From a virus, in IMG/VR virus record IMGVR_UViG_3300009509_000026, positions 1-51,946 of that record: 51,946 nt of DNA, one strand, 5' to 3'. Positions 947-49,873 of the stretch are shown in pieces. The position numbers and the translations under genes are program-made. The notes under the pieces are model-generated. The model searched no databases and was not told the origin of the DNA. It worked only from the letters and a program-made list of their open reading frames with translations. The first letter of the stretch is position 1, and each line of letters opens with the position of its first letter.

Positions 947-974
947 ACTATAACAAGGGGGGCGTTTTTGTCAA
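947..974 (-). promoter_or_regulatory. Phage promoter of the shared 28-bp family, for the gene starting at 915
   Basis: On the minus strand the -35 TTGACA (969-974) and -10 TATAGT (947-952) are separated by 16 bp. The spacer begins AAAACG and ends TTGT, giving an extended -10 TGTTATAGT. The -35 overlaps the TGA stop of the Vsr gene (971-973). Confidence 0.8.
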
Positions 975-1417
975 GCGGTGGGCTTCGTCTTGGACTTCAC
1001 GATCTCGCGCCACAGGCGGTTGTAGAGGGAGACCTCGTCCTTGAGCTCGCACTCCCACACCACGACGACCCTGAAGCCCCGCTCCTCGAGGGCCAGCCCG
1101 TCGCGCTCGTCCCTGGCCCTGGTGCGCCTGAACTTGGCCTCCCAGGCCCCGTGGTTCTTCGAGGCCGGGACCCTCGCGTGGGGGCACCCCTCGTGGTGGT
1201 GCCAGAAGCACCCGTGGACGAACAGGGCCCACCGGTCCTTCTTGTTGGCCACGTCCGGGGTCCCGGGGAGGGAGAGGACGTGCTTGCGGTAGCGGACGCC
1301 CATCATCCTGAGGAGCTTCCTGACGCGCAGCTCGGGGACCGTGTCCCTGACCTTCACCTTCCTCATCCTCTCGGTGATAGCAGGGTCGTCGGGCGTCTGG
1401 AAGGCCACGGCGCCCAT
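971..1417 (-). CDS. vsr: Very short patch repair (Vsr-type) endonuclease
   Basis: This 148-residue protein matches the Vsr family along its length. It has the N-terminal RDTVPELRVRKLLR helix, PGTPD with the likely catalytic Asp55, the FVHGCFWHHHEGC zinc and catalytic segment (residues 67-78), VPA, the RARDERD motif and the C-terminal VVVWECEL. Family enzymes nick DNA at T:G mismatches created by deamination of 5-methylcytosine. The ATG at 1417 lies 2 nt after the stop of the upstream gene (TGA at 1420-1422), so the two are probably co-transcribed. No cytosine-C5 methyltransferase, the usual partner, is visible in the window. The role here (repair, restriction-like attack or genome editing) is open. 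Confidence 0.88.
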   Translation of the reverse strand: MGAVAFQTPDDPAITERMRKVKVRDTVPELRVRKLLRMMGVRYRKHVLSLPGTPDVANKKDRWALFVHGCFWHHHEGCPHARVPASKNHGAWEAKFRRTRARDERDGLALEERGFRVVVVWECELKDEVSLYNRLWREIVKSKTKPTA

Positions 1418-36507: not shown

Positions 36508-36535
36508 TTGACAAAAACGCCCCGCCTGTTATAGT
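36508..36535 (+). promoter_or_regulatory. Phage promoter of the shared family, for the glycosyltransferase fusion
   Basis: -35 TTGACA (36508-36513), 16-bp spacer starting AAAACG and ending CCTGT, -10 TATAGT (36530-36535). A leader of about 45 nt with GGGAGG before ATG 36585 follows. Confidence 0.82.
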
Positions 36536-36584: not shown

Positions 36585-39368
36585 ATGGGAGAACTGAGGG
36601 TAGAGGGGCCGACGCGGAACGCGACGCTGGTGATGGTCGACGGCGACCACATCGGCAACGTCATCGAGCACACCGGCAAGTACTACGAAGAGGACCTTCT
36701 ACTCGCAGTCCGCTCGAGGGGACGGAAGGGGGCGTACGTCGACGTGGGGGCGCACTGCGGCAACCACACCGCCTTCTTCGCCCTCGAGTGCCCATCCACT
36801 GAAGTCGTGGCGATCGAGCCGGGCCCGATGGCCTGGGACTGCCTCCAGAAGACCATCGACGCCAACGACATCAGGGACAAGGTGCTGTCGGTCAGGTGCG
36901 CGGTCCACGACGAGCTCAGGTCCGTGGACTGGGCCTGCGCCGCCCCGGAGAACCTGGGGATGGGGTACGTGACGGAGGGCAAGCAGCTCAACGCCTTCAC
37001 GCTCGACGAGATCCTCAAGGACGCGGCCAACGTGGCCGTCATCAAGATCGACTGCGAGGGCTCGGAGCTTGAGGTCCTGAGATCCGCCGTCGAGACCATC
37101 AAGAAGCACAGGCCGATCCTCGTGGTGGAGACGGCCACCGACGAGGAGAGGGCGGAGGTGCGGAGGTTTCTCCAGCCCCTCGGGTACGAGCACGGGGACC
37201 GCTACTGCGCGACCCCCACCTACATCTGGGAGCCGAGAATGACGGACAAGAAGAAGCTGGCGGTCGTGTGCGACGGAGGCGACACCTTCCTCAGACCCAT
37301 CCTCGAGCTGCTCGAGGACGACTGGGAGATCCGGCGCTACGAGGGCCGGTCCTTCGTGGAGCTCGCCCAGTGGGCGGACGTGGTCTGGTTCGAGTGGTGC
37401 GAGCGCACGCTCGTGAACGCCACCACGATGGACCTCAAGGACATCGAGGCCAAGTTCGTCTGCCGCCTGCACAGCTACGAGGTCTTCGGGGACCTCCCAG
37501 ACAAGGTGAACTGGGAGAAGACCGCCGGCCTCGTGTTCGTCGCCGACCACGTCAAGGACTACTTCCTCCAGAAGTTCGCCCTCTACGGTCGGTACATGCC
37601 GCCCGTCCACGTGGTCCACAACGGGGTGGACATCCAGAAGTTCAAGCCGAGGCCGAGCATGGCCAAGAAGGACCTGGGCGGGAAGCGCGTCGCCAGCGTC
37701 GGGTACATCAACCACAAGAAGAACCCGGGGCTGCTGATGCAGTGCTTCAAGGCCATCCACGACCACGACCCAGCGTACACCTTCCACGTCGCGGGGACGT
37801 TCCAGGACCCGCGGATGGAGGAGTACGTGATGTCCTTCGTCGACCGCCACGAGCTCCCGGTGAGCTTCGACGGGTGGGTCGAGGACATGCCCGCGTGGTA
37901 CGCCGACAAGCAGTTCGTCATCTCGACCTCGTTCTGGGAGTCGTTCCACTACTCCATCGCGGAGGGGATGGCCTGCGGGCTCGTCCCGCTGATTCACGGC
38001 TGGACCGGCGCGAGGGACCTCTACCCCACGGAGTACGTCTACGAGACGCCCGAGGGGTGCGTGGCCATCATCAAGAAGTGGGAGCGGACCAAGGGGGCGC
38101 AGAAGCGCAAGAAGCTGGACGCCCTCAGGAAGCACGTGACGAGCCGCTACACGCTCACCAGGCAGGTCAAGGAGATCAGGAAGGTCCTGAAGGAGGCCTT
38201 CACGGCGGTCCCGGCCATGCTGGACGTCCACCAGGAGGACAAGGCCCCCACCCACGGCCTCGGGATCACCATGACGATGATTGCGAGGAACGAGGAGCTC
38301 GGGGTCGGGAGGGCCATCGACTCGTGCAAGGCCTTCTGCGAGAAGCAGCTCGTCCTCGTGGACGACAAGACCGAGGACCGGACCTTCGACGTCGCGGCGG
38401 ACCACGGCGCCACCGTGGAGCCCTACACGTTCACGGACGACTTCGCGGCGGCCCGCAACCTGGCCCAGTCGATGGCGAAGACGCCGTGGGTCTTCGTGCT
38501 GGACGGCCACGAGTACCTCAAGGGGGACCTCGCCGGCCTCGCCAGGTTCATGCGGATGCACCCCGACGTGGACGGCTACGAGCTGGAGGTGGTCCTCGAG
38601 GACGGCGACCCGCACAAGGACGTGCGCCTCTACAGGAAGGACAAGTGCCGGTGGGAGAACCCCATCCACAACACGCACGAGGTCCAGGGGAAGGTCCTGT
38701 ACTTCGACGGCGTCAAGGTGGTCCACGACAGGGACCACGGCCAGTCTCCCGCGTCGCGGTTCCAGCGGAGCGTCCAGCGCGACAAGCTCGTGACGAAGGT
38801 CCTGTCCAAGAAGGTGCGCGAGAACCCCAAGGACACGAGGAGCATCTTCTACCTCGCGCAGCAGCACCGCGACGCCGGCCGGTGGGACCTCGCGCTCCAC
38901 TGGTACAGGCTCTACACGCTGACCGACAGCCCGAACGTCTGGCCCGAGGAGCTGTTCCAGGCCCACGTGCAGGCGGCCAGGGCGGCGATGGCGATCAGCC
39001 TCCACGAGGAGGCGCTCGAGCACGGCGCGGAGGCCGCCAAGCTGATGCCCGCACGGGCCGAGGGGTGGTGCGTCCAGGGAGACGCCCACTACGCCACGCA
39101 GGACTTCGCCAAGGCCCTGGAGTTCTACCAGAAGGCGGAGTCGTGCGAGATCCCGAAGGACGCGAGGCTGTGGGTCGACAAGGCGATCCACAAGGACGGC
39201 TGGAAGGTCCTCGACGTGATCTCCATGTGCATGTACCACCTCGGGCAGCACGGCCAGGGCATCGAGGTCATCAAGCGGATCCTGGAGCTTCCCGCCCTAC
39301 CTGAGGACCAGCGTGGCCGGATCGCCAAGAACGCGGAGTTCCATCGGAAGAAGTCGTTCGGCTCCTGA
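36585..39368 (+). CDS. FkbM methyltransferase - GT4 - GT2 - TPR fusion protein
   Basis: 927 residues. Residues about 1-215 are an FkbM-type SAM methyltransferase (YVDVGAHCGNHTAFFA at 51-66, VAIEPG, VIKIDCEGSE at 152-161). Residues about 224-545 are a GT-B, GT4-type glycosyltransferase (VHNGVD at 344-349, SVGYINHKKNPGLL, and the E-x7-E motif at Glu452/Glu460). Residues about 560-745 are a GT-A, GT2-type enzyme (TMIARNEE, LVDDKTEDRT, VFVLDGHEY). Residues about 750-920 are TPR-like helices. The set could glycosylate and O-methylate a virion or host surface glycan; the acceptor is unknown. It has its own promoter, independent of the structural operon. Confidence 0.88.
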   Translation: MGELRVEGPTRNATLVMVDGDHIGNVIEHTGKYYEEDLLLAVRSRGRKGAYVDVGAHCGNHTAFFALECPSTEVVAIEPGPMAWDCLQKTIDANDIRDKVLSVRCAVHDELRSVDWACAAPENLGMGYVTEGKQLNAFTLDEILKDAANVAVIKIDCEGSELEVLRSAVETIKKHRPILVVETATDEERAEVRRFLQPLGYEHGDRYCATPTYIWEPRMTDKKKLAVVCDGGDTFLRPILELLEDDWEIRRYEGRSFVELAQWADVVWFEWCERTLVNATTMDLKDIEAKFVCRLHSYEVFGDLPDKVNWEKTAGLVFVADHVKDYFLQKFALYGRYMPPVHVVHNGVDIQKFKPRPSMAKKDLGGKRVASVGYINHKKNPGLLMQCFKAIHDHDPAYTFHVAGTFQDPRMEEYVMSFVDRHELPVSFDGWVEDMPAWYADKQFVISTSFWESFHYSIAEGMACGLVPLIHGWTGARDLYPTEYVYETPEGCVAIIKKWERTKGAQKRKKLDALRKHVTSRYTLTRQVKEIRKVLKEAFTAVPAMLDVHQEDKAPTHGLGITMTMIARNEELGVGRAIDSCKAFCEKQLVLVDDKTEDRTFDVAADHGATVEPYTFTDDFAAARNLAQSMAKTPWVFVLDGHEYLKGDLAGLARFMRMHPDVDGYELEVVLEDGDPHKDVRLYRKDKCRWENPIHNTHEVQGKVLYFDGVKVVHDRDHGQSPASRFQRSVQRDKLVTKVLSKKVRENPKDTRSIFYLAQQHRDAGRWDLALHWYRLYTLTDSPNVWPEELFQAHVQAARAAMAISLHEEALEHGAEAAKLMPARAEGWCVQGDAHYATQDFAKALEFYQKAESCEIPKDARLWVDKAIHKDGWKVLDVISMCMYHLGQHGQGIEVIKRILELPALPEDQRGRIAKNAEFHRKKSFGS

Positions 39369-39370
39369 CC

Positions 39371-39790
39371 ATGGCCAGGCGGTGGTCGGAGGAGGAGGAG
39401 GCCAGGGTCCGCGAGCTACGCGGGAAGATGTCCATCCCGGACGCCGCCGAGATCGTAGGCCGGTCCGAGGAGGCGCTGAAGTCCTACCTGAAGCGCAAGG
39501 GCATCGGCTGGGGGCGGTGGGCCCGGGAGTCGCCGAGGCGCGAGCGCATCGAGATGATCCGCCAGAGGCACGTGGTCGTGAGGGCGGTGGCGTTCCTCGA
39601 GCGCGTCAAGGAGTTCGGGGCGGTGGTGTCGAAGGTGGAGCTCGCCAGGAAGTCGGGGGCGAAAGCCATCATCCAGGGCGGCAGGGTCGTCGCGTGCCCC
39701 GACGAGGTCCTCCTCGACGAGGCCGCCGACAAGGCCGGCTACAGGAGGGGGCGGTCGAAGCAGCACGTCGTCTACAAGCCCAAGGGTTGA
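39371..39790 (+). CDS. SANT/Myb-like DNA-binding protein
   Basis: 139 residues starting MARRWSEEEEARVRELRG, 2 nt after the glycosyltransferase stop. Residues 3-50 (RWSEEEEARVRELRGKMS, PDAAEIVGRSEEALKSYLKR) form a Myb/SANT- or HTH-type three-helix domain with a terminal KGIGWGRW. The rest is basic. It is possibly a regulator. Its TGA stop lies inside the -35 TTGACG of the next promoter. Confidence 0.6.
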   Translation: MARRWSEEEEARVRELRGKMSIPDAAEIVGRSEEALKSYLKRKGIGWGRWARESPRRERIEMIRQRHVVVRAVAFLERVKEFGAVVSKVELARKSGAKAIIQGGRVVACPDEVLLDEAADKAGYRRGRSKQHVVYKPKG

Positions 39791-44217: not shown

Positions 44218-45063
44218 ATGCCGAAGACGAAGCAGCCCGTCGCCAAGAGGTCCGACCTGCTCTGGGTCCTCGTGTCGGAGATCGAGGTGGACGACAAGGA
44301 GAACTACACGAGGTCGAGCCGCGGGGACATCGAGGGCCTCGCCATGACCATCGCCAGCGAGGGGATCCAGAACCCCCTCCGGGCCTACAAGGAGGACGGG
44401 ATCTACCACCTCCGCTCGGGCTTCAGGCGCATGGCCGCGGTGCGGTTCATCAACGACGGCGGCCTCGACGGCGCCCCGAAGATCGAGCGCGTGCCGATCA
44501 TGCCGATCCCGAGGCACACCAACGAGGCGGACAGGGACCTGCTCCAGGTGCTCGAGAACGCCCACCGCGTGGACGCGAGCCCCATCGAGGAGGCGAGGGC
44601 CATCCGCAAGCTCATCGACGTCCACGGGCTCACGAGGGCGGAGGTGGCGCAGCGCCTCGGCATGGCCCCGAAGACCGTGCGGGACCGCCTGAACCTCATG
44701 CAGGCCGCCCAGCCCCTCCGCGACGCCATGCGGAAGGGCGACGTGTCGGCCTCGGCCGCCGCCGACATCGCCAGGAAGCACCCCAAGGACCCCGAGGCCC
44801 AGAAGAAGGCCCTCGAGCTGGCCAAGGGCCCGGACGGGAAGGCGACGGCGCGGTCCGCGAGGCGGGCCATCGGCTCGAGCAAGCCGCGCCAGACGACCCG
44901 CGGGGTGGTCGAGGTCAAGGAGGCCCTCGAGGCCACCGGCGCCGCCTTGGAGATGGCCCTGAAGGACGGGCGCACGGGGGCGGCTCGGGTTCTGGAGCAC
45001 ATCAAGCGCACCCTCGAGTGGACCCTCGGAGGCGAGGAGAAGCCATGGGAGCACTCGTCATGA
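44218..45063 (+). CDS. ParB/Spo0J-like DNA-binding protein (orphan)
   Basis: 281 residues. ATG 44218 is chosen because GGGAGG lies 5 nt before it; GTG 44212 overlaps that site. The ParB N-terminal domain has LAMTIASEGIQNPLRAY, the GxxRR-type box SGFRRMAAV (67-75), ENAHRVDASPIEEARAI (113-129) and a helix-turn-helix at about 137-161 (RAEVAQRLGMAPKTVRDRL). Such proteins bind palindromic DNA and CTP. No ParA is in the window, so partition is doubtful; a regulator or genome-organising role is possible. The 14-bp palindromes are candidate targets. Confidence 0.85.
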   Translation: MPKTKQPVAKRSDLLWVLVSEIEVDDKENYTRSSRGDIEGLAMTIASEGIQNPLRAYKEDGIYHLRSGFRRMAAVRFINDGGLDGAPKIERVPIMPIPRHTNEADRDLLQVLENAHRVDASPIEEARAIRKLIDVHGLTRAEVAQRLGMAPKTVRDRLNLMQAAQPLRDAMRKGDVSASAAADIARKHPKDPEAQKKALELAKGPDGKATARSARRAIGSSKPRQTTRGVVEVKEALEATGAALEMALKDGRTGAARVLEHIKRTLEWTLGGEEKPWEHSS

Positions 45064-46013: not shown

Positions 46014-46238
46014 ATGCTCGGGCACGTGGGAAGGACGATCAGGGAGAGGCTCACGGACCTGCGGTTCACGGCCGTGGGCCCCGAGAACGGGAAGTGGCGG
46101 GGCGTCATCAACCTCCACGACGAGAAGGGCCGGTTCGCCTCGCGGCTCTACCTCTCCGACGAGGAGTACGACTCGAAGGCCCAGGCGATCCGGGCCATGT
46201 CGTACTTGGTCAAGCAGGCCAGGAGGAGCAAGCGATGA
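46014..46238 (+). CDS. Small hypothetical protein
   Basis: 74 residues starting MLGHVGRTIRERLTDLRF, one base after the previous stop. The GVINLHDEKGRFASRLYL segment is beta-like and the end is basic (MSYLVKQARRSKR). It overlaps the methyltransferase start by ATGA, so may be a companion or specificity protein. No family is recognised. Confidence 0.6.
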   Translation: MLGHVGRTIRERLTDLRFTAVGPENGKWRGVINLHDEKGRFASRLYLSDEEYDSKAQAIRAMSYLVKQARRSKR

Positions 46239-46933
46239 GCGCGACAGGCCGGCGGGACATCCGCCTGAAGGACGACTTCTACCAGACGCCACCCTGGGCC
46301 TTCGAGTGGTTCGAGGAGATGCTCCAGCACTACGTCCCCACGAACAGAGGGCCGGCGACCATCCTCGAGCCCGGGGCCGGCTCGGGCAACCTCGTGCGGG
46401 AGCTGCACCGAGCCTTCCCCGACGCGACCATCGTGGCCGTCGAGAAGAGGCCCGAGTGCCGAGAGATGCTCTACGAGGCCGGGGCGGAGCACGTCGTCAT
46501 CGGGGACCTCGAGGACCCCGCCGTGCAAGCCAACGTCGGGGGCCTCGGCCCCTACGAGCTCGTCCTGGGCAACCCGCCGTACGGTGGCGCGAAGTGGATC
46601 AGCAAGGGGGTCCAGAACCCGCACTACCAGCTGTGGCTCAGGTTCCTCAGGATCAGCCTGGGGATGACGGAGCCGTGGTCGAGGGTCGCCTTCCTCCTGA
46701 GGACCGGCGTCCTCGAGGGGGCCGACCGCAACGAGTGGATCCGCACCCACGTCCCGGACGTCCACGTGTTCCCGAAGCGGCCGAAGTTCACGGGGACCGG
46801 GTCCGACTCGGCGACCTACGCCTGGATGGTGTGGCGTGACGAGGAGAGCGACAGGGGGACCGTGATGGTCATGAGGCACCTGGGCGACATCAACAAGAAG
46901 ACAGGGAGGACGGTGCGATGCCAGCCAAGATGA
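46235..46933 (+). CDS. DNA N6-adenine methyltransferase
   Basis: 232 residues. The start is marked by CAGGAGGAGCAAGCG before ATG 46235. Residues DDFYQTPPWAFEWFEEM, the SAM-binding motif ILEPGAGSGNLVREL (43-57) and the catalytic NPPY (113-116) are those of phage N6-adenine methyltransferases with motif I before motif IV. It could protect phage DNA from host restriction. It lacks a linked endonuclease. The two following genes overlap. Confidence 0.88.
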   Translation: MSATGRRDIRLKDDFYQTPPWAFEWFEEMLQHYVPTNRGPATILEPGAGSGNLVRELHRAFPDATIVAVEKRPECREMLYEAGAEHVVIGDLEDPAVQANVGGLGPYELVLGNPPYGGAKWISKGVQNPHYQLWLRFLRISLGMTEPWSRVAFLLRTGVLEGADRNEWIRTHVPDVHVFPKRPKFTGTGSDSATYAWMVWRDEESDRGTVMVMRHLGDINKKTGRTVRCQPR

Positions 46934-49039: not shown

Positions 49040-49873
49040 GTGGGGAAGACCAACATCCAGTGGACGCACCACAGCTGGAACCCGATGCACGGGTGCTCGC
49101 CGGTCGGCCCGGAGTGCGACCACTGCTACGCGAAGGCCATGGCGGCCAGGCTCAAGGGGTCCAAGGCCAAGGGCTACGAGGCTGGCTTCGGCGTGACGCT
49201 GCGTCCCGACCGCCTCGGGGAGCCGGCGAGCCTCAGGAAGCCGCAGATGGTGTTCCTGTGCTCCATGGGCGACCTCTTCCACGAGAGGGTCCCCTACACG
49301 TTCCAGAGCCTCGTCTTCGACGCCATGATGGAGGCGGACCACCACGTCTACCAAGTCCTCACGAAGAGGCCCTCGAGGATGAAGGAGTTCGTCGAGGAGT
49401 GGGTGGCGGAGCGGTTCTCCGACCAGGCCGACTGGTACAAGGTGCGCCACATCTGGCTCGGGACGAGCGTGGGAACGCGCAACGGCACCATCAGGGCCCT
49501 CGAGCTGTGCGAGGTGCCGGCGAGGTTCAGGATGCTGTCCGTGGAGCCCCTCATCGAGGAGATCGACCTCAGGCCGATCCTGAGGGCCTCGACGCCGCGC
49601 CTCATGGCCCTTCACAACGCCCACGTGGACAAGACGTGGCCCGGCGCGAGGCTCATCGAGTGGGTCATCGTGGGGGGCGAGACGGGCCCGGGGGCGAGGC
49701 CCATGAACAGCCTCTGGGCCAGGAAGATCTGGCACGACTGCAAGGGGGTGTCCGTGGACTTCTTCTTCAAGCACTGGGGGACCGGCGGCGCGGTGATCGA
49801 CATCAACGAGGCCGTCGGCGGCGTCCACGAGACGCCCCAGGACATCATCGAGCACCTGAGGAGGGTGGCATGA
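49040..49873 (+). CDS. Phage Gp37/Gp68 family (DUF5131) three-Cys protein
   Basis: 277 residues from GTG 49040 after GGAGGGAGGC. TNIQWTHHSWNPMHGCSPVG, ECDHCYAKAMAARLKG (Cys in C-x7-C-x2-C spacing), MVFLCSMGDLFHERVP, YQVLTKRPSRM, RFRMLSVEPLIEE, VIVGGETGPGARPM and SVDFFFKHWG match this family end to end. It is related to radical-SAM-like enzymes, but its substrate is unproven. Family members often neighbour a TcmP partner; none is present here. The next gene overlaps by ATGA. Confidence 0.88.
   Translation: MGKTNIQWTHHSWNPMHGCSPVGPECDHCYAKAMAARLKGSKAKGYEAGFGVTLRPDRLGEPASLRKPQMVFLCSMGDLFHERVPYTFQSLVFDAMMEADHHVYQVLTKRPSRMKEFVEEWVAERFSDQADWYKVRHIWLGTSVGTRNGTIRALELCEVPARFRMLSVEPLIEEIDLRPILRASTPRLMALHNAHVDKTWPGARLIEWVIVGGETGPGARPMNSLWARKIWHDCKGVSVDFFFKHWGTGGAVIDINEAVGGVHETPQDIIEHLRRVA

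Follow-up and report, generated by a model that had tools for sequence, protein, structure and literature searches.

A single-chain phage protein with FkbM methyltransferase, GT4, GT2 and TPR-like domains: a candidate enzyme for virion-protein glycosylation

In the present analysis, we describe a phage protein of 927 amino acids, P0001, in which an FkbM-type methyltransferase, two glycosyltransferases and a TPR-like helical repeat follow one another in one chain. We propose, with a probability of a little under 0.6, that P0001 may act in the cytoplasm to glycosylate and methylate a virion protein selected by its TPR part, by analogy with known protein glycosyltransferases. Two lines of evidence favour the virion as target: the viral kin of P0001 are associated with head genes, and glycans have been reported on the capsid and tail tube of mycobacteriophages (Freeman 2023, cited in PMC12619734). 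The gene lies on a viral contig of 51,946 bases, hereafter the window, which carries sheath, tube and baseplate genes and is a fragment, the contigs of sister phages being 88-95 kb long.

Results

P0001 is encoded by an open reading frame of 927 codons at 36585-39368 on the plus strand, with an ATG start and a strong coding score, exactly as the sequence-only reading had placed it, and profile searches matched each of the four domains named in that reading, in the order FkbM, GT4, GT2 and TPR, with every motif it listed present. The FkbM-type SAM methyltransferase (residues 1-215; 36585-37229, plus strand) is recognized by Pfam Methyltransf_21/FkbM over residues 53-202 (1.3e-14, 55.1 bits against a cut-off of 22.7) and by NCBIfam TIGR01444 (4e-22, 79.2 bits against a cut-off of 37.7), and its DVGAHCGNHT and KIDCEGSE motifs are intact (YVDVGAHCGNHT at residues 51-62, VIKIDCEGSE at 152-161). 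The GT4-type glycosyltransferase of GT-B fold (residues 219-545; 37239-38219, plus strand) is matched by Pfam Glyco_trans_1_4 over residues 367-475 (1.9e-12) and carries VHNGVD at 344-349, the E-x7-E pair E452/E460 and the subfamily signature DVVWFEWC / RLHSYE / GYINHKKNP. It is followed by the GT2-type glycosyltransferase of GT-A fold (residues 558-714; 38256-38726, plus strand), which is matched by Pfam Glycos_transf_2 over residues 565-660 (3.9e-9), has DDKTEDRT at 593-600 and reads DGH instead of DAD at the metal site (residues 640-642; motif region 38499-38513). The C-terminal TPR-like repeat (residues 722-923; 38748-39353, plus strand), seen in profiles and in the fold model (TPR_2 over residues 825-851, 32.3 bits against 27), is by analogy a probable binder of a protein substrate. 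A single family, PHROG_13126, covers GT2 and TPR together (residues 561-924).

Structure prediction part by part, as the sequence-only reading had proposed, bore out the two glycosyltransferase folds and left the methyltransferase part unmodelled. In the model of residues 1-548, the GT4 part forms a good GT-B fold (pLDDT mostly 85-98 over residues 220-540) whose best matches are WlaC, BshA, TarM and SenB; most of residues 1-134 have pLDDT <50, and the SAM motifs of this part are present in the sequence. The AlphaFold2 model of residues 555-927 (15 rows, mean pLDDT 79) consists of a GT-A domain and then helices, and its best whole-length PDB matches are ThuS and SunS (E 5e-15, TM-score about 0.5), followed by TPR proteins and by the GT-A enzymes TarS, RmlT and TarP. 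Likewise, the family profile of the GT2-TPR part matched GmaR at 2e-30 and SunS at 7e-28, and also the TPR part of O-GlcNAc transferase. Profiles and model together give P0001 the layout of the GmaR/SunS class, in which a GT-A domain precedes a TPR-like repeat.

The P0001 GT2 domain lacks the DxD metal motif. In its place stands DGH, which 15 of 18 viral rows (the window included) share, and DAD occupies the site in all 23 bacterial rows, a comparison confined to these 41 rows, with GmaR and SunS outside the set. A DxH motif binds metal in GT27 enzymes and, therefore, the GT2 domain of P0001 may be active with DGH. The GT4 domain is assigned by sequence to a distinct subfamily, in which E-x7-E was present in the scanned stretch of 78 of 87 members.

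No whole-length relative of P0001 was found, and no phage or plasmid record covered 80% of the query; the viral and bacterial loci that were found match the GT4 and/or the GT2-TPR part only, and a scan of viral contigs with the methyltransferase part alone gave no match. A 22-row alignment of all fragments against the whole of P0001 was dropped, the GT2 fragments having been misplaced onto the GT4 part. PADLOC returned no match for P0001, leaving a known defence role unsupported.

Sixty viral loci were found in IMG/VR with an alignment of six GT4 rows; they are taken as viral because they belong to that collection and, in most cases, because head genes were seen in them. The viral members of the GT4 subfamily take two main forms, a GT2-TPR-GT4 fusion of about 700-740 aa in one chain and a lone GT4 of about 310 aa. 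A major capsid gene lies 58-1338 bp upstream in 13 of the 14 non-redundant fusion genes; little of the upstream side is visible for the fourteenth (L044), because its start is separated by 739 bases from where the fetched stretch ends. Head or tail genes were present in the stretch in 20 of the 31 other viral GT4 groups. These group counts were made after near copies had been joined, and the capsid, scaffold, portal and head-morphogenesis calls are PHROG profile matches of representatives. The fusion genes that stand directly 3' of major capsid genes include those of L002, L003, L050, L061, L064, L067, L070 and L071. At positions -4 and -3 of the glycosyltransferase gene in L067, L068, L077 and L081, and upstream of the capsid gene, a 3-oxoacyl-ACP synthase III-like gene and a gene for a small acidic ACP-like protein were recognized by eye.

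In 16 loci, a methyltransferase gene stands at +1 or +2 of a free-standing viral GT4 gene, a count taken from the list of neighbour clusters with three representatives confirmed by Pfam; the largest neighbour cluster (34 loci) mixes GT2s and methyltransferases by way of a methyltransferase-GT2 fusion in L039 and was read by hand. The combination of sugar transfer and methylation in one protein, which the sequence-only reading had called rare in phages, was found in no isolated phage in the search in which no record covered 80% of the query, but it does occur in uncultivated viruses, as in the L039 fusion and in a protein of 1335 aa (L033:4579-8586) that joins a methyltransferase, a GT4, a GT2 and a further glycosyltransferase. 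Several viral loci contain likely sugar-making genes (Gfo/Idh, hexapeptide acetyltransferase and DegT aminotransferase), and the L033 fusion gene adjoins likely sugar-biosynthesis genes. We found no phage report of a fusion such as GT2-TPR-GT4 in a literature search that left most subscription papers outside; with the search being incomplete to that extent, the viral family behind capsid genes is apparently undescribed.

Among bacteria, the genome scan gave its best matches in Zixiibacteriota and in genomes of the Rhodothermus group, and the loci whose surroundings were inspected have flagellar genes beside them. The family search detected the GT4 at E <1e-30 in both phyla, with 56 of 134 Zixiibacteriota-phylum genomes and 12 of 297 genomes from the other phylum giving a match. 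Flagellar genes were within the stretch in 29 of the 35 bacterial GT4 loci that were fetched, a figure that is a description rather than an unbiased rate because longer contigs with strong matches supplied most of the loci; at the threshold used, the other six (L155, L157-L161) had no flagellar gene. The usual gene order in loci of the Zixiibacteriota phylum is fliW, TPR-GT4, GT2-TPR, fliC, fliD, fliS, and some bacterial GT4 members are fused to a GT2 or to a methyltransferase. FkbM methyltransferases have been reported in flagellin glycosylation islands of Geobacillus (PMC5109656). The window itself has no flagellar gene that we could find.

In the tree, the window GT4 falls into one group (100/99) with five viral rows and the Zixiibacteriota-phylum GT4s of flagellar loci, and it stands apart from the capsid-linked viral fusions; its identity is up to 48% to the bacterial flagellar enzymes and about 30-33% to the capsid-linked fusions. 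The window GT2 is on a very long branch of unsure placement and has DGH as in most viral rows. P0001 has its domains in the same order as the bacterial gene pair, GT4-GT2-TPR; in the viral fusions the order is reversed. With a GT4 near flagellar kin, a viral-like GT2 motif and the bacterial domain order, P0001 may therefore be a mosaic, the placement of its GT2 being the weak part of that assignment.

Unlike the viral fusions, the P0001 gene has no major capsid gene within about 1.5 kb; upstream are tail and fibre-module genes and downstream are small genes, and no capsid gene was recognized among these neighbours. The gene has its own promoter, an extended -10 sigma70-type site (TTGACA-16-TATAGT, 36508-36535, plus strand) located 49 nt upstream of the ATG. 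Sites of the same class occur at 39787, 40563 and 44154 on the plus strand and at 974 and 2638 on the minus strand, in agreement with the earlier claim of a shared-type promoter, and the class precedes g41, g44 and the ParB-like g50, which speaks against inferring co-regulation from the neighbouring fibre genes. The nearest phages by sheath protein are two nearly alike contigs (L011, L012; 67% identity). These sister phages share synteny with the window for most of g5-g38 and, on the other side, from g40 onwards, and no copy of P0001 was detectable in either; thus, their virions seem able to do without it. The same spot in one sister, L020 (2383-3758, minus strand), holds five tRNA genes and an ARAGORN tmRNA call with a tag peptide ending in PGRG, and in both sister loci, L020 and L022, TTGACA-16-CCTGTTATAGT comes directly after the g38 homologue. 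Taken together, the synteny, the tRNA genes and the shared promoter indicate that the P0001 gene fills a promoter-led cargo slot that ends the tail and fibre genes, outside the structural operon. The sequence-only reading was therefore right that the gene lies beside the fibre genes, but this position says little about function. Elsewhere in the window are a Vsr-like DNA mismatch endonuclease gene (971-1417, minus strand) and genes for a ParB-like protein (44218-45063), a DNA methyltransferase-like protein (46235-46933) and a DUF5131 protein (49040-49873), the last three being PADLOC candidates PDC-M30B/M41B.

Discussion

It is documented that the GT2 domain of GmaR attaches GlcNAc to flagellin, its TPR part being proposed as the flagellin binder (PMC9638930), and that efficient glycosylation by FlmG requires its TPR part, which binds flagellin (PMC7591256). 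By analogy with these two enzymes, the C-terminal repeat of P0001 would bind a protein substrate, most likely a phage virion protein. Like the GT2-TPR enzymes GmaR, SunS and ThuS, the GT2 domain would then start the glycan, drawing on a nucleotide sugar of the host. Extension by one more sugar would fall to the GT4 domain, and O-methylation of the glycan, with SAM, to the FkbM domain; the expected product is a short methyl-capped glycan on the particle. Glycosylation of a virion protein, one of two roles suggested in the sequence-only reading, is favoured both by the capsid and head-gene context of the viral relatives and by the class of acceptor used by GT2-TPR enzymes. Several points count against it. 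The P0001 gene does not follow a capsid gene and lies apart from the structural operon, under its own promoter; two syntenic sister phages have no detectable copy; its GT4 is nearer to bacterial flagellar enzymes than to the capsid-linked fusions; and the GT2 departs from DAD at the metal motif and has a very long branch whose position is unsure.

Some of these points suggest that P0001 might instead modify a host protein during infection, above all flagellin or another surface protein, with effects such as altered motility or the blocking of flagellum- or pilus-dependent phages. A host target such as flagellin is conceivable given the location outside the structural operon, the phage-type promoter of a class that also precedes non-structural genes, and a cargo slot occupied by tRNA genes in one sister, and the nearest GT4 kin are genes of flagellar loci adjoining fliC. 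However, most viral relatives are in head gene clusters, which points to virion targets, and kinship with flagellar enzymes need not mean that the same substrate was kept; we consider a host-protein target unlikely, though host flagellin is the leading alternative. The other role suggested in the sequence-only reading, remodelling of the host envelope, found no support in any relative read. Action on a polysaccharide of the host surface or on a lipid-linked glycan, leading to receptor masking or serotype change, would fit the sub-threshold NCBIfam matches of P0001, which include exopolysaccharide glycosyltransferases, and O-antigen and exopolysaccharide loci, too, commonly encode GT4, GT2 and FkbM domains. 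Yet the GT2-TPR part best matches protein- and peptide-modifying enzymes, no lipid-linked-sugar enzyme was recognized among the window genes scanned, and the loci of the relatives read have no O-antigen setting, which makes this role improbable. As virus-encoded glycosyltransferases are reported to hypermodify DNA (Pyle 2024, cited in PMC12619734), glycosylation of phage DNA with hydroxymethylated bases was considered as well; it is very improbable, since the kin of P0001 are tied to proteins rather than DNA and no hydroxymethylase or thymidylate-synthase-like gene was seen among the genes scanned in the window, itself a fragment.

Returning to a virion target, it is tempting to speculate, at somewhat less than even odds, that phages captured the flagellin-glycosylation pair of GT4 and GT2-TPR more than once for coating their own particles, which might have given rise to the widespread, apparently undescribed family behind capsid genes, P0001 being a condensed one-chain form that would prime, extend and methyl-cap a virion glycan. 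Glycosylation of phage virions is known from few cases, and a capsid-linked family that is spread over many uncultivated viruses and related to genes of flagellar loci offers a testable set of candidates for roles of glycan coats in phages. As a tool, the four-domain chain might provide a compact means of producing proteins with methylated glycans.

P0001 resembles several known systems in part. GmaR, the flagellin GlcNAc transferase of Listeria, likewise has GT2 followed by TPR and a protein acceptor, but it has an antirepressor domain and neither a GT4 nor a methyltransferase; the P0001 GT2 motif is DGH. The peptide glycosyltransferases SunS and ThuS, the closest in whole-length fold to the GT2-TPR part, are without GT4 or FkbM domains, and their substrates are small peptides. 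FlmG of Caulobacter, likened here by description, combines TPR and GT-B parts and acts on flagellin, but it has one glycosyltransferase only and transfers pseudaminic acid (PMC7591256). The flagellar TPR-GT4/GT2-TPR pair of Zixiibacteriota is closest in GT4 sequence and shares the order of GT4 then GT2-TPR, whereas it is split into two genes, has an N-terminal TPR where P0001 has FkbM, and uses DAD in the GT2. The capsid-linked viral fusions share the GT4 subfamily, a mostly DGH-type GT2, the TPR and the single chain, and differ in their opposite domain order, the lack of a methyltransferase domain and their place in the capsid operon. With regard to the proposed product, the nearest parallel, again by description, is the virion glycosylation reported for mycobacteriophages, in which capsid and tail tube are the glycan-bearing parts (Freeman 2023, cited in PMC12619734).
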